A stretch of 64,000 bases of DNA from Paucidesulfovibrio gracilis DSM 16080 (GTDB lineage Bacteria > Desulfobacterota > Desulfovibrionia > Desulfovibrionales > Desulfovibrionaceae). The notes under the pieces were generated by a model that worked only from the letters and a program-made list of their open reading frames with translations, did no database searches and was not told where the DNA came from. Made by a program: the position numbers and the translations under genes. The stretch is taken from contig NZ_FUYC01000005.1 in assembly GCF_900167125.1 (NCBI RefSeq), forward strand, positions 62,001 through 126,000. Reading direction: 5' to 3'. Shown one piece after another: positions 29,797 through 44,820 of the stretch. Position 1 is the stretch's first letter. The number at the start of each line of letters is the position of its first letter.

Positions 29797-31578
29797 ATGA
29801 TCCAGAGCAGTAAACGGTCCCTTTCCAGAAACTTGACGATCAGCCTCGTGGCGGCGGTGGTCATCCTGGTGGCGGCACTGTTCGGCATCCAGCATTGGAA
29901 CCTCGCACGTCGTGCCAACGCCGAACTGGAAATCAAGGCCGACAACTACGCCGACGAACTTGCGGAAATTCTTGCCATCCCCATGTGGACCCTGGATACC
30001 GCCAACGTGCGGCACGTGGGACAGGTTTACGAACGAAACGACCTCTTCTCCCGCCTGCGCATCGCGGATTCCCGCGGGGAAACACTCTACCTCTACGAAG
30101 CCGAAGACCGGACCGCCGAGGAAATTCACCGCACCCGCAGCATCACCTTTGAAGGACACGTCATCGGCCATCTGGACATGGCGCTCTCCCTGGCCAGCAG
30201 CCAAAAAACCGCGCGCCAGCTCCTCTATGCCACCTCCATGAACATCGCGGCCACGGCCCTGGCCCTGTTCGTGGCCACGGGCATCCTCTTGCGCGTCTTT
30301 CTCCGGCGGCCCTTGACGGAGCTGGAACAAGCCATGGACCATGTGGCCCGGGGCGACTTTTCCAAATCCATTTCCGGCCCGCGCTATGCCGAACTGGAAC
30401 GCATCATGGACTCCTTTCAAAAAATGTCCGCCACCATCCGCGCACGCGAGGAATCCCTGCGCCGCGTCAACGAAGCCCTCTCCGTAAGCGAGCAGCGCTT
30501 GAACATGGCCATTACAGCGGCCAACGACGGCCTTTGGGACTGGGAATTGCCGCACAATCAATCCTACTATTCGCCGCGCTGGTACACCATGCTCGGCTAT
30601 GAACCGGACTCCATGCCCCCGACTCTGGAAACCTGGGAAAAACTCATTCATCCCGAAGACCAGCCCCGGGTTCGTGCCGCCCTGGACCAACACCTCAAAG
30701 ACGGGGGCGAGGAATTCACTTCGGAATTCCGCATGCGCAGCAGCGACGGCGGATACCGCTGGGTGCTCACGCGAGGGCAGGTCACGGAACGCGGTCCCCA
30801 GGGGGAGCCGCTCCGCATGACCGGCACGCACCAGGACATCACCGAGCGCAAGGAAGCCGAAGCCATGCGCGAGGAACTGATCAACGAACTGGAAGAAAAA
30901 AACGCCGAGTTGGAACGCTTCACCTACACCGTATCCCACGATCTCAAAAGCCCGCTCATCACCATCAAAGGCTTTCTGGGCATGTTGCAGACTGATCTGG
31001 AGCGCGGCGACAAGGAACACATTGAAAAAGACATGGGCCGCATCGGCCAGGCCGCGGACAAGATGCAGCAGTTGCTCGACGAACTGCTTGAACTTTCCCG
31101 CGTGGGCCGGCTCAACAACCCGCCCGAGGAAGTGAATCTCGGCACCCTCGCGGGCGAAGCCGTGGAGCTGGTGGCCGGACAAATCAACGAGCTGGGCGTT
31201 TCCGTGGACATTCAACCGGACCTGCCCACAGTGCGGGCGGACCGACCCCGGATGCTTGAGGTCTTCCAAAACCTCGTGGACAACGCCACTAAATTCATGG
31301 GCGAACAGCCCGATCCCCACATCGAAATCGGCGTCCGCAAGGAAAACGGAGAGGATGTCGTGTTTGTCAAAGACAACGGCATCGGCATCAAAAAGGATTA
31401 CTTCCACAAAGTCTTCGGACTCTTCGACCAACTGGACCAGGGCAAGGGCGGCACCGGCATCGGACTGGCCCTGGTCAAACGCGTCATAGAAACCCACGGC
31501 GGACGCATCTGGGTGGAGTCCGAAGGTCTGGGCCACGGCGCCACGTTCTTCTTCACCATCAAGGGGATGTCCGGTTGA
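29797..31578 (+). CDS. Membrane PAS-domain sensor histidine kinase
   Basis: A 593-residue kinase. Two membrane helices (about 12-33 and 148-170) flank a periplasmic sensor. A HAMP segment, a PAS/PAC domain (about 235-355, ending TGTHQDITERKEAEA) and a coiled coil follow. HisKA has phospho-acceptor His381 in VSHDLKSPL, and the HATPase_c domain has VFQNLVDNATKF, DNGIGI and GGTGIGLALVKR. No receiver domain or response-regulator gene is adjacent, so the output is unknown. The preceding solute-binding gene may supply its input. Confidence 0.93.
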   Translation: MIQSSKRSLSRNLTISLVAAVVILVAALFGIQHWNLARRANAELEIKADNYADELAEILAIPMWTLDTANVRHVGQVYERNDLFSRLRIADSRGETLYLYEAEDRTAEEIHRTRSITFEGHVIGHLDMALSLASSQKTARQLLYATSMNIAATALALFVATGILLRVFLRRPLTELEQAMDHVARGDFSKSISGPRYAELERIMDSFQKMSATIRAREESLRRVNEALSVSEQRLNMAITAANDGLWDWELPHNQSYYSPRWYTMLGYEPDSMPPTLETWEKLIHPEDQPRVRAALDQHLKDGGEEFTSEFRMRSSDGGYRWVLTRGQVTERGPQGEPLRMTGTHQDITERKEAEAMREELINELEEKNAELERFTYTVSHDLKSPLITIKGFLGMLQTDLERGDKEHIEKDMGRIGQAADKMQQLLDELLELSRVGRLNNPPEEVNLGTLAGEAVELVAGQINELGVSVDIQPDLPTVRADRPRMLEVFQNLVDNATKFMGEQPDPHIEIGVRKENGEDVVFVKDNGIGIKKDYFHKVFGLFDQLDQGKGGTGIGLALVKRVIETHGGRIWVESEGLGHGATFFFTIKGMSG

Positions 31579-31601
31579 CAGGGAGGTTCCGCCTGTTTAT
31601 C

Positions 31602-31628
31602 AGCACGAAAATCTTTCGTGCTTTTTTT
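31602..31628 (+). terminator. Intrinsic terminator after the histidine kinase
   Basis: A perfect 9-base stem (AGCACGAAA / TTTCGTGCT) with a three-base loop is followed by seven T. It closes the solute-binding/kinase transcript. Confidence 0.9.
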
Positions 31629-31631
31629 CAC

Positions 31632-31658
31632 TTGACTTTCCTACGCATTCGGTAGACT
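31632..31658 (+). promoter_or_regulatory. Candidate promoter of the non-coding RNA locus
   Basis: TTGACT at 31632 and TAGACT at 31653 lie just after the kinase terminator, with a short spacing of 15 bases. It would start transcription near 31665, at the left end of the structured region. Confidence 0.4.
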
Positions 31659-31659
31659 T

Positions 31660-31976
31660 TTGCCTCGGTTTCCACACGACGCCGACGACCACGGCCGCGT
31701 GGAAGGGATCCACCTATCTCTCCCTTCCCCCAATCAAGCGCTGCCGACAGTCGCCCGGTTCTCCGTCAAGGGCCTGCCGCCGGACGCTTCGGCGCAGCGA
31801 GACCGCCCTTCGCGTGCCATCCACCGAAGGTCGTTGCCCGAATCGCGGACTCGGCGGAACCCGAACCCGAGAAGGCCGGTAGAACATGGACACCCAAAAC
31901 GGCGCGCAACGCGCAAGGCCTTGGGGATCTCGGACTAGGCTCAGGAACGGCTCGGCTTTTGTCGGGCCGTTCTTTT
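31660..31976 (+). ncRNA. Probable structured non-coding RNA of unknown class
   Basis: This ~310-base interval between two intrinsic terminators has its own candidate promoter and no plausible coding frame. The longest frame, 31660-31938, lacks a ribosome-binding site and protein-like composition. It is rich in self-complementary segments: an 8-base stem GGAAGGGA / TCCCTTCC around a 12-base loop (31701-31728), a CCAC..GTGG hairpin just before it, GCCG..CGGC pairs in the middle, and GCCT near the 5' end with AGGC near 31937. It ends in a strong terminator. Signatures of tmRNA, RNase P and SRP RNA were looked for and not found. A 6S-like RNA is possible but not demonstrated. Confidence 0.45.
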
Positions 31977-31977
31977 T
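31945..31977 (+). terminator. Intrinsic terminator ending the non-coding RNA locus
   Basis: The stem GAACGGC(T)CGGC / GTCGGGCCGTTC has a TTTT loop and is followed by seven T. Confidence 0.85.
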
Positions 31978-32115
31978 TTCTGCGCCGCTCTCTCCCCTCC
32001 CGCCCGGACCGTTGCCCCCTGGCGCATCCGCATCCACGAACAATATGGCGTACAAAACGCCCAGGGTACCCCCACAGCCCTGCAACGAATTTCCCCGGAA
32101 AAGTTTTCGGCTTGG

Positions 32116-32144
32116 TTGCCTTCCCCCGAAAAGCCGGATACATA
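32116..32144 (+). promoter_or_regulatory. Candidate sigma-70 promoter of the STAS gene
   Basis: TTGCCT at 32116 and TACATA at 32139 are 17 bases apart, about 45 bases before the STAS start codon. Confidence 0.5.
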
Positions 32145-32191
32145 ATGCAACGGCGTACCCGTAGCCCAAGCGGACCGCCAAAGGAGGGGGA

Positions 32192-32536
32192 ATGGAATTC
32201 ACGGTCTTGGAAGACACGGACGGTCTGCGCCGCGTTGTGCTTTCCGGTCGCATGGACGCGGCGGGCATCAAGGAAATTGAAACCGCCTTTAACGAGGCGG
32301 TGGGGCAATCCCCCCATTCCGTGGTCGCGGACATGGGCGACGTGGCGTTCATGGCCTCCATGGGCATGGGCCTGCTCCTGCGCAACGCCCGGGAACTGGC
32401 CGCGCAGGAAAAGCGTCTTGTCCTGTACCGCCCCCAGGAACTGGTGGAGGAAGTCATGCAGATCGCGGGATTGCAGCGGCTCATTCCCATTGAGCACGAC
32501 CCGGACCAAGCCGCGGCTCGCGCCAAGGAAGCCTGA
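32192..32536 (+). CDS. STAS-domain anti-anti-sigma factor-like protein
   Basis: A 114-residue cytoplasmic STAS protein. The pattern matches SpoIIAA/RsbV-type antagonists (VVLSGRMDAAGIKEIETAFNEA; VVADMGDVAFMASMGMGLLLRNAREL). The serine corresponding to the phosphorylated residue is present (Ser56), but the preceding Asp is Ala and the usual SSGLG is SMGMG. It may be a substrate of the PP2C phosphatase at 26.5-28.6 kb. No kinase/anti-sigma partner is encoded in the window. An AGGAGG-type site precedes the ATG. Confidence 0.88.
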   Translation: MEFTVLEDTDGLRRVVLSGRMDAAGIKEIETAFNEAVGQSPHSVVADMGDVAFMASMGMGLLLRNARELAAQEKRLVLYRPQELVEEVMQIAGLQRLIPIEHDPDQAAARAKEA

Positions 32537-32595
32537 TCGCGATACTTTTTCTCCACATTCGGAGACGGCGCGGTTTTACTTTTTGCGGTGCGACT

Positions 32596-32616
32596 GCTAT
32601 CGTTCCGCACGATAGC
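32596..32616 (+). promoter_or_regulatory. Perfect inverted repeat between the STAS gene and the next exported protein
   Basis: GCTATCGT and ACGATAGC are separated by five bases, 59 bases before the following start codon. It could be an operator or an RNA hairpin. No T tract follows, so it is not an obvious terminator. Confidence 0.35.
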
Positions 32617-32674
32617 GGGATATGCGCCCTTCCCGCCAATGGCCCCGTACCATAAATGCAGCAAAGGTGTGCGC

Positions 32675-33481
32675 ATGATCAAGCGAACAACTCCCCTCGT
32701 CCTTCTCGTCGTCCTCTCGGCCCTGATCGCGCTGACGGCGGCTCCGGCCTTTTCCGAAAACCTTTCCGAAGCGGAAAAAAAAGAATTTTCCATGAACGTG
32801 GCTCTGCCCTCCCCGGCGGAAATGTTCCTGGCCATCGACCGGCTGGGTGAAACCGACTGGCAGGCCGTGGCCGAACACAACCCCCGCTACGACTACCAGG
32901 ACAACTACATGCGCGCGCTGAACCTGGGGGTTCGCTCCGCTGACGGCCTGGTAGCCATTCTTGCCGAGGACAAATCCAAACTCGGCGAGATCATCGTCAT
33001 CGTCATCACCCTGGCCGAGGAACTCCAGGTGCAGGAAACCATCCTGGACCGGAGCAAGTCCTTTGAGGACATGGCCAACCAGGGACGCTGGGACGAACTG
33101 CGCGACGAACTGGACGCGCTGCGCTACCTCATCGAAATGGAGATGGACCAGCTCGGCGACCAGGACGTGGCCACGCTGGTACGCGTGGGCGGCTGGCTGG
33201 AAGGCCTGCGGGTCACTTCCGGACTGCTGGCCGAAGGACTCTACCCCGAGCACAGCTCATCCATTCTGTATCAGCCGAACCTCGTAAACTACTTTGAACG
33301 CGAACTCTCGGGCATGGAACCCGAAGCGCGGCAATCCCCGGCAGTGCAGGCCGTGCTCCAGGCGCTGCCTGAAATCCGATCCCTGGTGCGCGTGGGATAC
33401 CGAAAGCCCGTGCCCACGAAAAACATCCAACGCCTGAATCGGATCGCCACGGATCTGATCGCACTGATCGAAAGGGGGTAA
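32675..33481 (+). CDS. Exported helical protein of unknown function
   Basis: A 268-residue protein with a signal peptide (residues about 1-25, ending APAFS) and a largely helical, acidic mature chain. I do not recognise the family. The ATG at 32675 follows AAAGGTG; the longer frame lacks a signal sequence at its start. It is followed after six bases by a second small exported protein, then by a large ABC transporter on the same strand. Confidence 0.75.
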   Translation: MIKRTTPLVLLVVLSALIALTAAPAFSENLSEAEKKEFSMNVALPSPAEMFLAIDRLGETDWQAVAEHNPRYDYQDNYMRALNLGVRSADGLVAILAEDKSKLGEIIVIVITLAEELQVQETILDRSKSFEDMANQGRWDELRDELDALRYLIEMEMDQLGDQDVATLVRVGGWLEGLRVTSGLLAEGLYPEHSSSILYQPNLVNYFERELSGMEPEARQSPAVQAVLQALPEIRSLVRVGYRKPVPTKNIQRLNRIATDLIALIERG

Positions 33482-33487
33482 GGAAAT

Positions 33488-33913
33488 ATGAAGGCACGCA
33501 CTCTCGCCTTGCTGGCAGCCATGCTGCTGATTCCGATCCTGGCCATGGCCGGGCGCATGGACATCCGCAAGCCCGCCTACGACCAGGTGCTCAAATATGA
33601 GAACCAGGGCTACAGCGTTAAGGACGACATCCAGATCGGCGAACTCGCCGAAGGAAAGTCCTATTATTTCGACACACAACTCACCACGGGCATCGACTAC
33701 TTCTTCCACTTTCAGGGGGACCAGGGTGTTCGCTCCCTGCGCCTGGAAATGTACGATGAAAACTGGGATCTCGTAGCCCAGAGCACCGGCACCGGCGAAC
33801 CAGCCACCGTGGCGCTCAAACCGGAATGGAGCGGAACCTTCCACGTCAAGGCCACTCTGGTGGAATGCCAGGGCGGTATGGATTACTGGTTCATCCTCGC
33901 GGGATACAAGTAG
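33488..33913 (+). CDS. Small exported beta-rich protein of unknown function
   Basis: A 141-residue protein with a signal peptide (residues about 1-21) and a body of alternating strands that looks like a small beta-sandwich (YYFDTQLTTGIDYFFHFQGD, then VRSLRLEMYDENWDLVAQS). It starts six bases after the previous exported protein, indicating one transcript. Such domains resemble periplasmic pre-peptidase C-like or carbohydrate-binding folds, but no definite family is claimed. Confidence 0.75.
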   Translation: MKARTLALLAAMLLIPILAMAGRMDIRKPAYDQVLKYENQGYSVKDDIQIGELAEGKSYYFDTQLTTGIDYFFHFQGDQGVRSLRLEMYDENWDLVAQSTGTGEPATVALKPEWSGTFHVKATLVECQGGMDYWFILAGYK

Positions 33914-34082
33914 CCCACCGAGCGACGATACGCGCCATGGTCCCCATCGCGCGGCAGAAAACAATTTCGGACGGGTTCGGTCCCCCGGCGGCGTGGGACC
34001 GGCCCTTCCCTTTCCCGCTTCCGCCCGACCGCCCCACTGACACGCGGTGACGGTCAGCCGCCACAGCCCGCTTTGGAGACCC

Positions 34083-37499
<3,417 letters not shown>

Positions 37500-37513
37500 G
37501 CGAATACAGATTC

Positions 37514-37812
37514 CGGGGGGAACCCTTTCTGAAGAAAGGTTCTCCCCCCGGCCCCCCCTTCCAAAGACTTTTATTAGCTCCAGGCCTGCGGCCTGTCGCG
37601 GTTATCGTTTTTTTGAGTTTCTTATTCCCCCCCCTTCCCCAAAGCAAAAGAACGGCCGAAGCCGTTCTTTTGCTTTGGGGCGCACCGTTGCCGCGCTGCT
37701 CCGCCTTGCCACTCCCCCGACGCCTTCCCACCCTACGCCCCCGGCCGCGCGCAGCGCGAGACCGGGAAATGGGATTCCAAAGGGTCGCGGACCCTTTGGC
37801 CGCCGGAGGCAT
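37514..37812 (+). repeat. Modular intergenic repeat, copy A
   Basis: This non-coding stretch between the ABC transporter and etfA matches the reverse complement of 44443-44751 over most of its length. Shared blocks are a hairpin around CTTTCTGAAGAAAG, TCCAAAGACTT, the CAGGCCTGCGGCCTG dyad followed by TCGCGGTTATCG, GCGCACCGTTGCCGCG, CTGCTCCGCCTTGCCA, CCCACCCTACGCCCCCGGCC, and the near-palindrome CCAAAGGGTCGCGGACCCTT. A unique insert (37637-37680) forms a perfect 20-base-pair hairpin with a CGAA loop. It carries no open reading frame with coding character. Confidence 0.9.
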
Positions 37813-37853
37813 GCCTTTCAGCCCCGCAGGGCCGCCGGAGGCATTGTTGTTCT

Positions 37854-38885
37854 TTACTTGGCGAGCAACTCGTTCACTTTTTTCATGACAGCGAACGCAT
37901 CGGCCACGTAGAGCACATCGGCTTTTCCGTGCGCCCAGCCGCATCCGGCATCCAGGTTGATGGCGCGGCGCTCATTGATGAACCGCCAGCCCACCACGTG
38001 GGGTTCCTCGCCGTGGCAACAGGTCGCCAGCCCCTTGGGGTGGCGCGGTGTGGAGCCGGTCTGCCCCACTTGGTGCAGATGCGTGAGGAAGTCCAGCACA
38101 TCCTGCCCTTCGGACCCGAGGTCCACCAGAGACTTGGAACTGCCAAGGGAACTTTTCGTTTTGTCCAGAAAATCGAGCAACATTTCGCCCGCTTCCTTGA
38201 CGTGGGGCTGTCCGTCATTTTGTTTTTTGGTCCAGCCTGCACCGGCCACGATGAGCAAATTCGCATCCGGGCGGATGGTCTGGGCGTCAGCGTCAGGCTT
38301 TTTCACGCCCGTCACCGTGGTGCGGGTCAGGTTGTCCAGCGGGACATCCACAGCCTGGAGCGCCGCCTCCCCGGGGAATTCGGCGGGTTCGGCGCATCCG
38401 GGCGACAGGGTCAGCACCCAGGGTCCGTCAAAGGAATCCATATCACGCTGCACCTGGCCGGACATACGTTGCCGGTAGAACCATCGGGTGGGTAGCGGGT
38501 TGCCGTCAACCGCATCCAGTGCGGTGATGTTGGTGTCGATGCGGCCGCCCAGACGGTAGGCTGCCCCGGGCAAACAACGGGCAAACCGGGCCGTGGCCGG
38601 GGCGAGGACGATTTTGGCTTCGGCCGCAGTGCAAAGTGCGGCACAGGCTGCGGCATCCGTGCTGTAGCGGGACTGTCCGAAGGCTTCGCCGCTGACGCTG
38701 AAAAAGGCCTCGGCTCCGCATCCGCCGATGCTTTGCGCGGCCTGGGTCACGTCGGCGCCCACGAGTCCCACCTTGAGCGGTCGGCCCAGGTTGTCGGCAA
38801 GCTGTTTTGCGGTGCCGAGAGTTTCCATGGCGGCCTTGGACAGACTGCCGTTGTCGTCGGTATGTGCGAGATACAAAATACTCAT
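37854..38885 (-). CDS. etfA: Electron transfer flavoprotein alpha subunit, divergent
   Basis: A 343-residue ETF alpha-type protein that should carry electrons from the acyl-CoA dehydrogenase to the quinone oxidoreductase of the same operon. The N-terminal domain and linker fit the family. The C-terminal FAD domain keeps VGQTGST, but the usual following stretch (LYIAxGISGAIQH in canonical proteins) is replaced by one with a Cys-Cys pair (HPKGLATCCHGEEPHVVGW). The ATG at 38885 with an AGGGGAAG site starts MSILYLAH, the normal family start. It is the last gene of a four-gene minus-strand operon. Confidence 0.85.
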   Translation of the reverse strand: MSILYLAHTDDNGSLSKAAMETLGTAKQLADNLGRPLKVGLVGADVTQAAQSIGGCGAEAFFSVSGEAFGQSRYSTDAAACAALCTAAEAKIVLAPATARFARCLPGAAYRLGGRIDTNITALDAVDGNPLPTRWFYRQRMSGQVQRDMDSFDGPWVLTLSPGCAEPAEFPGEAALQAVDVPLDNLTRTTVTGVKKPDADAQTIRPDANLLIVAGAGWTKKQNDGQPHVKEAGEMLLDFLDKTKSSLGSSKSLVDLGSEGQDVLDFLTHLHQVGQTGSTPRHPKGLATCCHGEEPHVVGWRFINERRAINLDAGCGWAHGKADVLYVADAFAVMKKVNELLAK

Positions 38886-38895
38886 ACTCTTCCCC

Positions 38896-39693
38896 TTATC
38901 CCTGAATCCAGTCCACGAGTTCGCGGGCGATGTCATCCACGGGCATGTCCTTGACCACGCGGGTTTCGCGCACCACCTGCGGCAGGCTCACGCCCAGCAC
39001 ACCGAAGCCGTTGCCGAGCTGGGCCGGCTTGGCCTGCTGGAGCGCGGGCATAATGGTCTTCATGTTCATCATGCCCACCTGGGGATTGTTGGGCGGTTCG
39101 GGCAATTCGCCGGTGGCCCAGCCAAACGCGGCCGGAGCGCCCTGGACGGTGGAGGTCAGCCAGCTGCCGCCCTCAATGCGTTCCAGCACTTCAAGGCCGT
39201 TGTCGGTGATGGAGAGCTGGTCCACGCCCTGGAACTGGTCCACGATGCCGAGACGTTCGGCCACCATCTGAATGGTGGAACCCGAGCCACGGGAAGCGGA
39301 TTGCCAGCCGCCGAAGAGCAGGAGCTTTTCACGATCCAGATCAGCGATGCCCTCAATGGCCTGGGCCAGGGCTTCGGCCACCTGGAAGCTGTCGGTGAAG
39401 CCCGAGGCAGGTCCGTCCACGGCCACCAGCTCAAAGGGGGCTTTTTGCGCCACGGCCATCATGACCTGCTGGAGCTTGGCCTTGGGACCGAGGCTCACGA
39501 GCCAGACCCGGCAATCTCCGCGCTTGGCGGCTAGGTTGGCGGCTTCGTACAGGGCATGCCCGGCCCAGGGGTCGAGCACGGCGGGAAGCATCATCTCATT
39601 TTTCAAGGCCGGTCCCTGCGGACTGTCCACGGGGTTCAGGGTTTGCAGCGGATCAGGAACGATACTGCCGCAGACCACGATGTGGTAACTCAT
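38896..39693 (-). CDS. etfB: Electron transfer flavoprotein beta subunit
   Basis: A 265-residue ETF beta-type protein. It opens with HIVVCGSIVPDPLQ, has LDPWAGHALYEAANLAAKRG (the adenine-nucleotide-binding type helix) and GSTIQMVAERLGI, and ends near VDWIQG. It pairs with EtfA in a soluble FAD-containing electron carrier. An AAGGAG site precedes the ATG, and etfA follows after 10 bases. Upstream in the operon are the ETF:quinone oxidoreductase and acyl-CoA dehydrogenase. Confidence 0.88.
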   Translation of the reverse strand: MSYHIVVCGSIVPDPLQTLNPVDSPQGPALKNEMMLPAVLDPWAGHALYEAANLAAKRGDCRVWLVSLGPKAKLQQVMMAVAQKAPFELVAVDGPASGFTDSFQVAEALAQAIEGIADLDREKLLLFGGWQSASRGSGSTIQMVAERLGIVDQFQGVDQLSITDNGLEVLERIEGGSWLTSTVQGAPAAFGWATGELPEPPNNPQVGMMNMKTIMPALQQAKPAQLGNGFGVLGVSLPQVVRETRVVKDMPVDDIARELVDWIQG

Positions 39694-39902
39694 AGATTCT
39701 CCTTGTTGCGGCTTGGGGGCGGTCTCCTGGGTGCGAGATCCACCGCCTTTGCTCGAAACGTGCGGAGCGGGAAAATGCTCCGTTGCGGTCGGCCCGCGCC
39801 ATGGTCGGCAGCAAGGGCTTACCCGCGTCAGTTGTCAACAGGCCGCCGCACGCGGCAACGGCGTGGAAGGGAAAGATCGGCTCCCGCCGTGGGGAGCGGA
39901 AT

Positions 39903-41765
39903 TTAGTTCTCAGCCGAATGCAATCCGCCGGATCCAGCGGAAAAATCCACATTGGTCCGTTCAGGATCGTCAGGATGCGCCTGGGTACAGTTCCACAGGC
40001 ACGCGCCGCAATGCACGCATTTTTCGCGGTCGAACAGAGGCACAGGACCATCCGGATTCATGGTGATGGCCTGGCCGGAGCAGACTTCGACGCAAATGTT
40101 GGTCCGGCAGCGGGCGCAGGCCTGCGGATCCAGGAATCGGACATGATCCGCGAATCCCGGGTTGGCCTGGACCTTGCCACCCATGAGCAGGGCATCCTGA
40201 TGGGAAACCAAGAGCTTGCCGTCATAGGGGATGGACGGCCAGCCCGCACGCTCCATGAGCGTATCGTGCAGGGGGCGGCCATTGGTCTTGCACTCCTCGC
40301 GGATGCGCATGATTTCCCCGGCAGGCAGGATGTGGCGGTAATATTCCTCCAGGGTGGGAATGCGCTCATACACGCGCTTTTGCGGACCCGAGAGGTTGAA
40401 CGCGCCTTTGGTCAGGCCGGACAACGCCATGCCCATCAATCCGGAAACCATGCCTTTTTGGAAGCCGTCGCGAGCCTTTTCGGACTGCACGGACTCCTCT
40501 TCCAGCCAGGAGGCACGACGCCGTGCGGCGTAGGCGATATCCAGATTGTCCTTGGTGAAATCACGTCCCTTGCGCATCAGGTCAAGGACGGCCTGGCCGA
40601 GCTGCACACCCGAGGTCCAGGCTTCGTCCACGCCCGAGCCGGTTAGCACGTTGGTGGTGCCGGAGCCTTCGCCGATGCGCGCCCAACCATCGCCCGTCAG
40701 GAACGGTTCGCCGCGGCGTCCCGATTCCAGCAGGGACTTGGCGCCCCAGGAACGCATGGTCCCGCCGCGAAGGTGCTTCCAGAGGTAGGGATGCATCATC
40801 CAATGCTGGAGGTAGCGGTAGGCGGTGCGGACCGGGGAGTCAAACCAGGACGGCACAAAAATGCCCAGGGACGCCACATTGTCCGGGTAGACATAGAGAA
40901 AACCAAAAATTTCCGGCTCGGGATAGCCCAGGGTATGCAGCACGGTGCCGGGCTTGAGACCGCAGTGCTCGGGCAAATCCACGACCATCTTCATGCCCAC
41001 GGCCCATTCGCGTTGATGGTTGCCCTTGGGCAGGCCGAATTCGTTGTTCAACCCGCGTCCCACAGCACCCACGGGACCGTCGCCCACCACGGTGAGCTGC
41101 GCTTTGACGTCCATGCCGGGCATAAACGCGCCTTCCGGGGTGCCGTCCCGCGCCACGCCCTGATCAACAAGCCGCACGCCCGTGACCTTGTCGTCCTCGG
41201 TAAGGGCTTTTTCCACGGGCATGCCGGGCCAGATCTGGGCCATCCCCGATCCCATGGCCTGTGCGCCGGTCCAGGAAAGAAACTGCCCCATGGAGAGCAG
41301 CATTCCCGGTTCCTTACGCAGGAAAGGAGGAATCCAGGGGAGTTCGGCAGCCATATCCCGTCGGAACGGAAGCAAGAGCTTTTCAAAGGCCTTCATGCCC
41401 GTGGCCTTACGGCTGGCCCCCACGGGATCAAAAAGATACACGACCTTTTCCTCGGTGACCTCGCAAGCCATGGGGATCTGGGAAAGGTCCAGCTCCGGGA
41501 AGGAAGCGCGGATGCCGCGGCCTTTGGTCACGATGCCGGAAACACCGAATCCGATGTCGTCGGCGCGTTCATAGCAGAGCACCTGCGGCGGCATGCCCGG
41601 CATGGCCTTGGATTCGGCGATGGGCGTCCCGTCTTCATTCATGAGGGCGGGAATCAGCGTGGCCAGGAATCCGGCGGTGGCTGGCCCGTAGCCCACGCAG
41701 ACGATGTCCGCTTCCATGGATTGCCGCAGGTCGTCGGGGTTGATTTGGGGCGTCTGATCGCTCAT
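39903..41765 (-). CDS. ETF:quinone oxidoreductase-like flavoprotein with 2[4Fe-4S] C terminus
   Basis: A 620-residue FAD protein. The dinucleotide fold opens with DIVCVGYGPATAGFL, and the middle contains VVGDGPVGAVGRGLNNEFG and GWARIGEGSGTTNVLTGSGVDEA. The C terminus binds two iron-sulfur clusters: CARCRTNICVEVC and CVHCGACLWNC, the latter with standard CxxCxxCxxxC spacing. This is the architecture of ETF:quinone oxidoreductase/FixC-FixX fusions, which pass electrons from ETF to the membrane quinone pool. The ATG at 41765 has a GGAG site. It lies between acyl-CoA dehydrogenase and etfB. Confidence 0.87.
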   Translation of the reverse strand: MSDQTPQINPDDLRQSMEADIVCVGYGPATAGFLATLIPALMNEDGTPIAESKAMPGMPPQVLCYERADDIGFGVSGIVTKGRGIRASFPELDLSQIPMACEVTEEKVVYLFDPVGASRKATGMKAFEKLLLPFRRDMAAELPWIPPFLRKEPGMLLSMGQFLSWTGAQAMGSGMAQIWPGMPVEKALTEDDKVTGVRLVDQGVARDGTPEGAFMPGMDVKAQLTVVGDGPVGAVGRGLNNEFGLPKGNHQREWAVGMKMVVDLPEHCGLKPGTVLHTLGYPEPEIFGFLYVYPDNVASLGIFVPSWFDSPVRTAYRYLQHWMMHPYLWKHLRGGTMRSWGAKSLLESGRRGEPFLTGDGWARIGEGSGTTNVLTGSGVDEAWTSGVQLGQAVLDLMRKGRDFTKDNLDIAYAARRRASWLEEESVQSEKARDGFQKGMVSGLMGMALSGLTKGAFNLSGPQKRVYERIPTLEEYYRHILPAGEIMRIREECKTNGRPLHDTLMERAGWPSIPYDGKLLVSHQDALLMGGKVQANPGFADHVRFLDPQACARCRTNICVEVCSGQAITMNPDGPVPLFDREKCVHCGACLWNCTQAHPDDPERTNVDFSAGSGGLHSAEN

Positions 41766-41841
41766 GCGTGCTCCGTCTGGTATGCATCGGCTCCCGTGGG
41801 CACGGTGCGCCACGGGAGCCGGGATTATTATTGTTGCGGAT

Positions 41842-43878
41842 TTACAGCGGATAATCCAGGGCTTCGGGGATCATCACGCCGGCCAGGGCTTCGGCGGCGC
41901 GGTCCTTGGCCAACCGGGAACCCGCGAGCTTGGCGTCAGTGGCCGCGCGCAGGGCGGCAAAGGGGGCGGTGTCGCCCTGGGCCTCGAAGCCGTAAACCAG
42001 CTCGGCCAAAATGCGTCCGGCTTCCCCTGTGGAGCGGGCCGCCTGCACAAAGCCAAGATCGTTGTAGAATCCGGAGAGGCCTTCCAGTCCCTCGGCCACG
42101 GTGGGATTCATCGGGCCTTGCTCGATCAAAGCGGCCACATCATCCATGAAGGTGACGGCGGCCACAAGCCAGCACAACGCGTCGGCCAGTGGGAAGGAAA
42201 CCCCCTGCCGCTTGCGGTGCAGCAGTTTTTTGCCATCCGCGTCCTTGGCCTTGGCCAGGAAGTCCTGCGCCCAGAGCCAGGTACGCAGCCCCTCGGCCAG
42301 GGCAGCGGCTCCGGGACGACCCGAGGCTTCCAGTTGATCCGCCTTGTTCTTCAACACGGCCAAAAATACCGGATTGCTCATGGTCACGGTGAGGTGCATG
42401 CGCTGTACAGCTTCCGGACCTTCGTAGGTGGCTTCAAGCTGGGCGTCGGCCCATTTGTGCATCAAAAAGCCGGGGCAGTCCTCGGTGATGCCGTACCCGC
42501 CCATAAGACTGATGGCCTCACGCAGGAACGTGGCACCAACGCCCGTGTTCCACAGCTTGGTGGCCGGAATGGTCACGTTGAGCACGGCGTCGAGATAGGA
42601 AAAACGCACCAGGGGATCGGACTCCAGTTCCGCCAAACGGCCTTGGTCCGCTCCCTCGGCAAACAGCAGATCCACATATTCCAGGGTCTCGGGCTGTTTT
42701 TTCTTCAACGCGGCCATTTGCTTGCGCGGCCCTTCACAGCCCTGCTCGGCCAAAAGCGCTTCCTTCTGCTTTTCAATGGGATCGAAATCATCGGCCATGC
42801 GTGCGGCAGAAAAACCAAGGGAAGCGCCAGCTTCGCCCGCAGCCCAGATGTCCACAAGACGCTGGCGGGTGTCTTCCTTCTGTTGCAGGCCCATTTCAAA
42901 CTTAGGACTCCCGGGACCAGAGGCATCGCCGCCCCGGAAACGGGTGCGATGATAGCGAATCACCGGCTCAATAGCGGAAAGCAACTTGGCCGTGGTCATC
43001 AGACCCACCGGAATACGGGTGCGGTGGAACACCGCGCCGATAATCTCGGCGTGGGAATATTTGGGGACAATGACTCCGTCCTTGATCTCGTACCCGCCGA
43101 TGATGCGGCTGGCCGGAACCTTCACGGAGATGATGGGATCGCGTGTGGAGGAAAGCTGGTGACACATCTTCAGGGTGGGCGCGCCGCGGTCAAACGTACC
43201 CGGGTCGTCGGCCTGCAGGGTGATCATACAGGAACCCTGAATACGATCGTCCGTGGAGTCCACGGCCGCAGTCACGAAATGGGCGAAATCCATATTGGTG
43301 ATGAACCGGCCGCGTTTTTCCACATGCAGCATCGGCTCCTCGCCGTCCTTCCATTCGTCCACGCGGACCTTGCCCACGAGAACGCCCGTGTCCACGCCCA
43401 CATACGGCAGCGGCTCGGTGAGCGCGAACGCGCCGCGCCAGATCTCCCGGTCCTCGCCCGGCTGGGGCGGCGTGGCCTTGTGCATGTAGTAGTCGCGCTG
43501 CTCCGGGGTGCCCTTCTCGTGGATGGGGGCCAGGGCCAGGTTGCTGGCCAAGGAGCACGTGGCGGACCCGCCGTCCACCCAGGACAACTCAAAGGCCACC
43601 AGAGCCAACGCCAAATTTTTTGGTCCCTCAATGAACCCGCCCTGATGCGGATCCATGAACAACGATGTCAAACCGGATTGGTCAAACGCCTCCAGAAGCT
43701 GATCCTTCTGTTCGTTCCACTCATGGCTGGCGCGGACGCCCTGGGCCACGAGACCGGCCACGGTTCCCCGCGCAATCTGGCGGGCGGATTGGACCACCAT
43801 CTGGAGGTCGAAACGATCGGCGAAGCGCCACATGATTTGACGGACGTCGTCGCCGGGCAGTGTGTTGAGCGTGTACAT
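41842..43878 (-). CDS. Acyl-CoA dehydrogenase, long form
   Basis: A 678-residue flavoenzyme that introduces a double bond into acyl-CoA. The core domain has GAFALTEPLPYVGVDTG, and LMGGYGITEDCPGFLMHKWADAQLEATYEGPEAVQRMHLT contains the catalytic-base-type YEG Glu. The protein is longer than classical dehydrogenases (about 380-400 residues), with about 150 extra C-terminal residues like bacterial FadE-type enzymes. It is the first gene of the operon feeding ETF and ETF:quinone oxidoreductase, and a near-consensus promoter precedes it. The chain length of its substrate is unknown. Confidence 0.92.
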   Translation of the reverse strand: MYTLNTLPGDDVRQIMWRFADRFDLQMVVQSARQIARGTVAGLVAQGVRASHEWNEQKDQLLEAFDQSGLTSLFMDPHQGGFIEGPKNLALALVAFELSWVDGGSATCSLASNLALAPIHEKGTPEQRDYYMHKATPPQPGEDREIWRGAFALTEPLPYVGVDTGVLVGKVRVDEWKDGEEPMLHVEKRGRFITNMDFAHFVTAAVDSTDDRIQGSCMITLQADDPGTFDRGAPTLKMCHQLSSTRDPIISVKVPASRIIGGYEIKDGVIVPKYSHAEIIGAVFHRTRIPVGLMTTAKLLSAIEPVIRYHRTRFRGGDASGPGSPKFEMGLQQKEDTRQRLVDIWAAGEAGASLGFSAARMADDFDPIEKQKEALLAEQGCEGPRKQMAALKKKQPETLEYVDLLFAEGADQGRLAELESDPLVRFSYLDAVLNVTIPATKLWNTGVGATFLREAISLMGGYGITEDCPGFLMHKWADAQLEATYEGPEAVQRMHLTVTMSNPVFLAVLKNKADQLEASGRPGAAALAEGLRTWLWAQDFLAKAKDADGKKLLHRKRQGVSFPLADALCWLVAAVTFMDDVAALIEQGPMNPTVAEGLEGLSGFYNDLGFVQAARSTGEAGRILAELVYGFEAQGDTAPFAALRAATDAKLAGSRLAKDRAAEALAGVMIPEALDYPL

Positions 43879-43939
43879 GGGATGCGTTCCTGATCTCGAT
43901 AGGTTGGTAAACGATTGCCAGGGATAGAACCGACATGGG

Positions 43940-43968
43940 AGGATAGGTCAAAGCGTACAGCGAGTCAA
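43940..43968 (-). promoter_or_regulatory. Sigma-70 promoter of the acyl-CoA dehydrogenase/ETF operon
   Basis: On the minus strand TTGACT (43968-43963) and TATCCT (43945-43940) are separated by exactly 17 bases. Transcription would start near 43933, about 55 bases before the dehydrogenase start codon. Confidence 0.7.
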
Positions 43969-44243
43969 AAATAAATGTCCCCGTCGATCTCCTGGAATAT
44001 CCTTGTCTGCTGTGGGTTTCCGGTGCATGCGAAGAAGCGGCGGCGCATACGTGCGGGCGCTCACTCGATCATCTGTGCCGTGCAATGTTGGTATCGTGTT
44101 TTGGGCGCACCGGCAAGGTTTCAGGTCCAAGACAACCACGCTCAAAAACATATCCCACCAGTACCCCCCCCTCCCACAATCGCGTCGGATCCCAATATCC
44201 ACACCCGGCAATGGGGAATTTTCAAAAAATCGGCAAAAAGTCC

Positions 44244-44272
44244 TTGACGACCGAAGGGGATTGCTTTAGTTC
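44244..44272 (+). promoter_or_regulatory. Promoter of tRNA-Arg
   Basis: TTGACG at 44244 and TAGTTC at 44267 have 17-base spacing and lie 15 bases before the mature tRNA. The remaining ~270 bases between this promoter and the dehydrogenase promoter show no gene or clear structure. Confidence 0.55.
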
Positions 44273-44286
44273 TCTCTTCCTCGCGT

Positions 44287-44362
44287 GGGCTCGTGGCTCA
44301 GTGGATAGAGCATTCGGCTACGAACCGAAAGGTCGCAGGTTCGAATCCTGCCGAGCCCACCA
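44287..44362 (+). tRNA. tRNA-Arg (anticodon ACG)
   Basis: A complete 76-base cloverleaf: acceptor GGGCTCG pairing with CGAGCCC, D-arm GCTC/GAGC, anticodon stem TTCGG/CCGAA with loop CTACGAA (anticodon ACG), T-arm GCAGG/CCTGC with TTCGAAT, discriminator A and an encoded CCA. The ACG anticodon is normally converted to ICG to read CGU, CGC and CGA. Confidence 0.97.
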
Positions 44363-44374
44363 CTCCGAAAATTT

Positions 44375-44403
44375 AGGCCGTTCCAAATGGAACGGCCTTT
44401 TTC
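44375..44403 (+). terminator. Intrinsic terminator of tRNA-Arg
   Basis: A perfect 10-base stem AGGCCGTTCC / GGAACGGCCT with an AAAT loop is followed by TTTTT, 12 bases after the tRNA. Confidence 0.92.
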
Positions 44404-44442
44404 GTTATTGTATCCCCTCCGCATATCCGCCAAGCCAATACT

Positions 44443-44751
44443 ATGCCTCCGGCGGCCAAAGGGTCCGCGACCCTTTGGAATCCCTTTTCCCGGTCTCGCG
44501 CTTTCGCGCGGCCGGGGGCGTAGGGTGGGATGGAGTCCGGGGAATGGCAAGGCGGAGCAGCGCGGCAGCGCGATCTCATGTTGCCGCGATTTCCGGGATG
44601 GCTCCGCCCTCCCGAAACTCGCGGCAACGGTGCGCCCCCAAACAAAACAAACAACGATAACCGCGACAGGCCGCAGGCCTGGAGCTAGGGAAAGTCTTTG
44701 GAAAGGGGGTCCAGGGGGAAGAACCTTTCTTCAGAAAGGTTTGCCCCCTGG
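44443..44751 (-). repeat. Modular intergenic repeat, copy B (inverted relative to copy A)
   Basis: The reverse complement of this stretch follows copy A block for block, from the hairpin around CTTTCTGAAGAAAG to the CCAAAGGGTCGCGGACCCTT near-palindrome and GCCGCCGGAGGCAT. Between GCGCACC and CTGCTCCGCC it carries a different insert, a long imperfect hairpin at 44580-44628 with GTTGCCGCGA / TCGCGGCAAC arms. It lies between tRNA-Arg and a radical SAM gene. The open frames across it (for example 44266-44550 minus) look like artefacts of the repeat. Confidence 0.9.
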
Positions 44752-44820
44752 TCGCCGAAGGCCACCCATTCCACTCCTTCACGGCTTGCCTGTTTGCCGG
44801 AACTCGTGCAGACCAGTTTG

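Follow-up and report, generated by a model that had tools for sequence, protein, structure and literature searches.

Why is a block of metabolic genes in Paucidesulfovibrio gracilis DSM 16080 bracketed by two inverted copies of one intergenic repeat, and what kind of element is this repeat? The question arises from a stretch of 64,000 nucleotides (nt) of contig NZ_FUYC01000005.1 (positions 62,001 to 126,000), here referred to as the window; coordinates are positions in it. The block carries the genes for ETF-alpha, ETF-beta, an ETF-QO/FeS protein and acyl-CoA dehydrogenase as well as a tRNA-Arg, and lies between the repeat copies here named A and B. An initial annotation, made from the sequence alone, had described both copies and considered that their inverted placement could permit inversion of the 6.6 kb between them. 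Our favoured reading, to which we assign a probability of about 0.6, is that the repeat forms an intergenic end structure and that its copies recombine with one another and have flipped the block.

Orientation of the block in the genus

Comparison of the window with itself confirmed A and B as the same repeat, inverted relative to each other. Four inverted arm pairs were found: 37515-37613/44649-44747 (99 nt, 80%), 37686-37751/44505-44570 (66 nt, 92%), 37753-37812/44443-44502 (60 nt, 98%) and 37665-37695/44620-44650 (31 nt, 90%).

The block was compared with the two other genomes of the genus, G001 and G002, of which G002 is the nearer to the P. gracilis genome (G000). Both carry the order tRNA-Arg (-), Tag (-), acyl-CoA dehydrogenase (+), ETF-QO/FeS protein (+), ETF-beta (+), ETF-alpha (+), a small gene (-) and a radical SAM gene (+). 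Here Tag, as well as CooS, CooC and FNR below, is what we take the genes to be from reading their sequences, with no family search. P. gracilis carries copy A, ETF-alpha (-), ETF-beta (-), the FeS protein (-), acyl-CoA dehydrogenase (-), the tRNA (+), copy B and the radical SAM gene (+). The polarity of the block is opposite to that in both relatives, which supports the inversion considered by the initial annotation. To the right of the block the gene order agrees among the three genomes, and 15 of 15 called genes between 44794 and 59802 follow the G001 order. Since nine matched proteins share 72-95% identity with G002 and 62-87% with G001, parsimony would place the inversion on the P. gracilis lineage.

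In G002 the interval between the genes for ETF-alpha and the radical SAM protein contains a short form of the element, whose right end faces the former and whose left end faces the latter. The same orientation is found in the window, where the right end of A adjoins ETF-alpha and the left end of B adjoins the radical SAM gene. The arrangement of A and B is the product that would be expected of a crossover between a pair of copies in inverted orientation. One copy would have been located at the ETF-alpha/radical SAM junction and the other beside the tRNA-Arg, and the crossover would have yielded the present order of ABC transporter, A, ETF genes to tRNA, B and radical SAM gene.

Between ETF-alpha and the radical SAM gene G002 also encodes a protein of 286 amino acids (L101:13235-14095, - strand). 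It had no Pfam match, and no equivalent is located at the corresponding place in P. gracilis.

Composition and distribution of the repeat

Searching the P. gracilis genome with copy A as query gave at least 81 match rows; scores were computed for 40 of the 88 candidate places. The 40 rows examined comprise 38 fetched places with their surroundings plus A and B. Flank comparison distinguished 30 right flanks among them, one of which (L046) belongs to a right-end fragment only. The central 17-mer GGCGCACCGTTGCCGCG had 33 exact matches, one match with one mismatch and two with two mismatches (backwards control: 5), some of these matches and rows being one physical copy met at two contig ends. The copy number in this bacterium is about 30, mostly at gene ends. 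The dispersed non-coding element proposed by the initial annotation was thereby borne out, as the right flanks and 17-mer matches are numerous, no coding frame was scored inside the element in any of the 40 rows, and its blocks are widespread in the genome instead of being restricted to A and B. Contig ends hold 31 of the 40 rows, so the assembly breaks at the element.

In two cases the same flank continued, across the element, into one partner in one contig and into another partner in a second contig. These were G000 C2:1-497, the end of C30 and the start of C38 (L039, L029, L028), and the end of C34, the end of C35 and the start of C30 (L016, L015, L035). Such flanks represent either assembly chimeras or alternative arrangements within the culture.

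The layout was obtained by aligning the rows, and separately 16 rows picked from the 40 as full or nearly full. A full copy is about 385-400 nt long. Its left part consists of a left terminal repeat (often present), a left palindrome, the CCAGGCCTGCGGCCTG dyad, a variable T/C-rich spacer and hairpin H1. These are followed by GGCGCACC, hairpin H2, a GC-rich arm, a right hairpin of one of two types (beginning with CCAAAGGG or CCAGGGGG) and a right terminal repeat, the right end of copies being GGTCGCCGAAGGC or GGCCGCCGGAGGC. The left terminal repeat GCCTTCGGCGACC, which with the following A reads GCCTTCGGCGACCA, was exact in 22 of the 40 rows, many of the others being cut by contig ends. It is present in B and many further copies and absent from A. 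A second GGCCGCCGGAGGC terminal palindrome is located at 37830-37842, just beyond the right end of A, and similar extensions follow several other copies.

H1 and H2 were both present in every row complete over that region, with the exceptions of A, B and the fragment L046. The perfect CGAA hairpin of A and the long imperfect hairpin of B, which the initial annotation had regarded as different inserts, were found as described (Table 1). However, since other complete copies hold both hairpins, the two "inserts" would reflect two different losses, and A and B appear to be distinct deletion derivatives shortened from the full element. Copy A lacks 59 nt including H2, and in comparison with L011 a 10-nt direct repeat is reduced to a single copy; compared with five other copies the direct repeat is 6-7 nt (8 copies tried, 6 with both anchors). 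In copy B the left arm of H1 is missing, along with part of the spacer. In L022, TTTTGTTT stands on both sides of the part missing from B, as would fit a loss by slippage from one repeat to the other; no exact junction was found for it because the spacer varies. Hairpin modules exchangeable between A and B were rejected on the same grounds, yet between species the centre does differ while the ends are kept.

Table 1. Features of copies A and B and of the block between them (window coordinates).
Feature	Position	Strand	Remarks
Copy A	37513-37812	+	no terminal repeat at left end; H2 deleted
A left-end palindrome (CCGGGGGGAACCC...GGTTCTCCCCCCGG)	37513-37551	+	kept in relatives
A dyad CCAGGCCTGCGGCCTG	37580-37595	+	
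A hairpin H1	37637-37680	+	20 bp, perfect, CGAA loop; A-tract / GC stem / T-tract
A CGTTGCCGCG	37686-37695	+	lone surviving direct-repeat copy at the 59-nt H2 deletion
A right-end hairpin (CCAAAGGG TCGCGGA CCCTTTGG)	37777-37799	+	covaries across three species
A right terminal repeat (GGCCGCCGGAGGC)	37798-37810	+	
Block of ETF-alpha, ETF-beta, ETF-QO/FeS protein, acyl-CoA dehydrogenase (all -) and tRNA-Arg (+)	37854-44362		inverted compared with both other genomes of the genus
tRNA-Arg (ACG)	44287-44362	+	
Copy B	44443-44762	-	without part of spacer and H1 left arm; H2 present
B right terminal repeat	44445-44457	-	
B right-end hairpin	44456-44478	-	
B hairpin H2 (GTTGCCGCG...CGCGGCAAC)	44580-44628	-	23 bp, 87%
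B remnant of H1 right arm (TTTTGTTTGGGGG on - strand)	44635-44647	-	
B dyad CCAGGCCTGCGGCCTG	44667-44682	-	
B left-end palindrome	44711-44751	-	
B left terminal inverted repeat (GCCTTCGGCGACCAGGG)	44746-44762	-	

Fold prediction placed the copy L009 (z -9.2) as well as A (-4.8) and B (-5.2) below their shuffles. For H1, 13 left arms were listed in 33 rows, and 10 distinct arms remained after removal of B (where the dyad had been picked instead), the cut-off L040 and one end-length variant. The arms paired without mismatch in 30 of 32 true H1 rows, a few of which are the same copy met twice. H2 was nearly invariant among the 16 aligned copies. Covariation of the right hairpin was analyzed on 17 distinct forms from three species: 99.4% of cells were paired and 5 of 10 pairs had changed on both sides, with 17 such cells against 2.2 in shuffles. 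Read on the left-to-right strand, its imperfect pairs were six G-U, no A-C and one A-G, counted as species-and-column events. The internal deviations of H1 were four G-U and no A-C plus two other mismatches, and the terminal repeats had one G-U and one A-C change. The G-U excess, a post-hoc count, hints at a constraint at the RNA level on the left-to-right strand.

Gene context was scored with a simple codon-score gene caller, and 31 of 80 sides located at contig ends were left out. Gene 3' ends were faced by 39 of the 49 scored sides (left 16/19, right 23/30), a bias with p = 4e-5 if the sides are assumed independent. H1 of copy A resembles a bidirectional intrinsic terminator in its layout, and from this and the position at gene ends we deduce a putative terminator role. 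The GC dyad was listed by a simple terminator scan, in B together with the right hairpin and the tRNA terminator. The element is most likely a 3'-end structure which would also serve as a recombination site.

Among five loci including A and B only the tRNA matched Rfam; for the L009 element the best matches were far under the gathering scores, and these sub-threshold matches look like chance. A known structured RNA family was thus rejected, as was a plasmid or phage origin, no match being found in plasmids or phages. That the copies might be remnants of a known insertion sequence or protein gene, a possibility raised by the initial annotation, received no support as far as tested (insertion sequence families were not scanned in general). 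The accessible parts of the literature on Desulfovibrio repeats, on sulfate-reducers and miniature inverted-repeat transposable elements (MITEs) and on concerted evolution of palindromic repeats contained nothing on the element.

A query with the full element matched 12 of 39 genomes including that of P. gracilis. In the others, among the matches listed (at most the best 17 candidates per genome), the matched parts were the two ends of the query. No other full centre was found when the centre alone was compared with 199 genomes of the family (at most the best 3 candidates per genome); 8 other genomes gave matches of only 25-42 nt, and the exact centre pattern had 0 matches in genome_contigs. 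We read 17 stretches from G002 and 10 from G001: the ends are alike across the three species and the centres differ. The G002 centre measures about 45-70 nt, and 12 of the 17 stretches (L123, L124, L126, L127 and L132 among them) carried two or three left-right units in tandem, spaced 207-229 nt. The G001 centres differ among themselves. Right-module mean identities were not used as a test because of spurious rows such as L009_R0, L023_R0 and G002 left modules read backwards. Taken at the sequence level, A and B appear to belong to a species-specific form of a repeat whose ends are more widespread in the bacterial family.

Matches starting at the first base of the element occurred, among those listed, in G001, G006, G007 and G009. 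The G009 locus L158, from a different genus, carries a left terminal repeat like that of P. gracilis beside a palindrome, and the idea that this repeat is unique to P. gracilis was dropped. G016, of another genus, carries the left module as direct or inverted pairs on contig C2 (L150-L154), and no right module was found there in the 500-nt stretches read.

Proposed recombination between copies and its alternatives

We propose that the element would form the 3' end of transcripts from neighbouring genes and act mainly as a strong end structure, i.e. as a bidirectional terminator and a block to 3' exonucleases. Its copies would recombine with one another, and crossover or conversion between them probably also spread the H1/H2 centre.

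Five junctions were examined, namely that of A/B and those of four of the seven other contig-internal copies (L034, L022, L025 and L009). For L034 and L022, the G002 counterpart of the adjoining gene likewise has a short element next to it, oriented as in P. gracilis. The far-side gene of L034, L022 and L009 was not found in the corresponding G001 and G002 loci (0 of 6) and that of L025 was found (1 of 1), in a test whose reach beyond the near gene is limited to about 1.5 kb, so that a longer insertion would give the same picture. Since the far-side gene is not conserved, L034 and L022 appear to be shared gene ends and not fully shared junctions, and their new centres could be due to crossover no less than to conversion. 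Elements may often sit at changed gene order, so that copies may mark several breakpoints, and the new centres may have arrived through crossovers of one copy with another.

A further step would be that exchange between the conserved ends lets the H1-H2 cassette overwrite older centres and reshuffle gene order, i.e. concerted evolution with no transposase. This extension is rather doubtful, and we lowered its odds because of the far-side genes at L034 and L022.

The limited reach of the far-side test weighs against recombination between end structures, and so do several other observations. Ten of the 49 scored sides are other than gene 3' ends, and B now precedes a gene start. Terminator-like sites in the simple scan were about as frequent in A as in shuffles (2 vs 1.4) and few above them in B (3 vs 1.2, one being the tRNA terminator), and H1 was not among the sites listed. 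The L025 and L009 junctions (two of the five examined) are without the element in G002, and no recognisable element was found at any of the four junctions located in G001, where the L025 neighbour gene was not found. Gains or losses of the element would therefore also occur. The copy beside the tRNA-Arg which the model requires was not seen in G001 or G002. Furthermore, G002 is apparently a metagenome assembly; in genome_contigs, the one locus with a relative of the acyl-CoA dehydrogenase belonged to a metagenome-assembled genome. Finally, the left side is unclean: the ABC transporter group (32192-37499) likewise stands in another place and in the opposite orientation compared with G001 and G002, and the tRNA-adjacent genes of the relatives had only short partial matches in the window, so more than one event is indicated.

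In the relatives, FNR-like, CooS, CooC and Tag genes are located between a histidine kinase gene and acyl-CoA dehydrogenase; no full match to them was found in the window, the part of the genome searched, where the region concerned is 31578-44287.

The disturbed left side bears on the alternative that another process inverted the block and that elements settled at both ends afterwards. At the left junction of the rearranged ABC transporter group (31540-32220) no element was recognised by eye and no further end motif was found, so the region may be labile for reasons possibly unrelated to the element. However, G002 with its uninverted order already has the element at ETF-alpha/radical SAM in the predicted orientation, and each of the present end points is occupied by an element, the two being inverted relative to each other, which makes this sequence of events improbable.

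Dispersed repeats of bacteria are usually thought to spread by transposition. As a MITE, the element would be a non-autonomous transposon mobilised in trans by a transposase recognising its terminal inverted repeats, with the inversion as a by-product. The frequency of the exact left terminal repeat and the lack of a coding frame inside the element would fit, as would the L025 and L009 junctions, which are occupied in P. gracilis and unoccupied in the nearer relative. However, no target duplication was seen by eye in the flanks, and the lone site with both flanks aligned (L025 vs L122) includes about 60 bases that could not be aligned. Copy A, L025 and the G002 copies read are also without the left terminal repeat at their left ends, although in G002, too, the element is dispersed. 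No parent transposon with the same ends was matched in plasmids or phages, which lack matches altogether; the transposase scan of the P. gracilis genome covered only PF01797. A MITE origin is possible on balance, if questionable. The same scan bears on a REP/BIME-type repeat mobilised by a REP-associated tyrosine transposase (RAYT), for which short GC-rich end palindromes, mostly gene-3' sites and the tandem left-right units of G002 would speak. But Y1_Tnp (PF01797) had 0 matches in P. gracilis, 5 of 14 control genomes matching, and the unit with its several hairpins is far beyond a palindrome of 20-40 nt. We rejected a RAYT-driven REP on the missing PF01797 match and regard the whole explanation as very unlikely. 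A family of trans-acting structured small RNAs transcribed left to right would account for the strong fold of L009, the covariation of the right hairpin and the preference for G-U over A-C pairs in that hairpin and in H1. It is nevertheless unlikely, as scans of A and B found no sigma-70-like promoter, no Rfam family matched and the centre is not conserved between sister species. Additionally, the even count in the terminal repeats indicates that the strand bias is not general.

Relation to known repeats and significance

The closest resemblance in behaviour is to the pneumococcal BOX elements, for which the available part of PMC3049150 describes end modules around a variable centre, a predicted highly structured RNA, enrichment between convergent genes and sizes of 67-637 bp. 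Like BOX, the P. gracilis repeat is modular and structured, with conserved end modules and a variable centre (PMC3049150). However, the boxB centre varies by copy number, whereas here the centres are different sequences between species; the boxA, boxB and boxC sequences themselves were not compared. With Correia/NEMIS and ERIC, as far as the available part of PMC2229807 covers them, it shares small size, dispersal, terminal inverted repeats and long RNA stem-loops. Target duplications are tabulated there for both families, and none were seen here; effects on mRNA stability are described as well. Correia elements occur with and without a 50-bp internal stretch (PMC2229807), whereas the main difference in the centre of our element lies between species. 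REP, BIME and REPIN sequences are likewise palindromic, intergenic and sometimes arrayed according to the parts available (PMC2817692, PMC3116915, PMC3733652), but the present unit is much longer and a Y1 transposase was unmatched in P. gracilis.

For fragmented assemblies, the element matters to how they are read, given the many rows at contig ends. Its copies mark a flipped block of metabolic genes and perhaps further breakpoints, and would thus matter for gene order. The sister species share the element ends beside some of the same genes and carry unrelated centres between them, which makes replacement by recombination testable in this genus.

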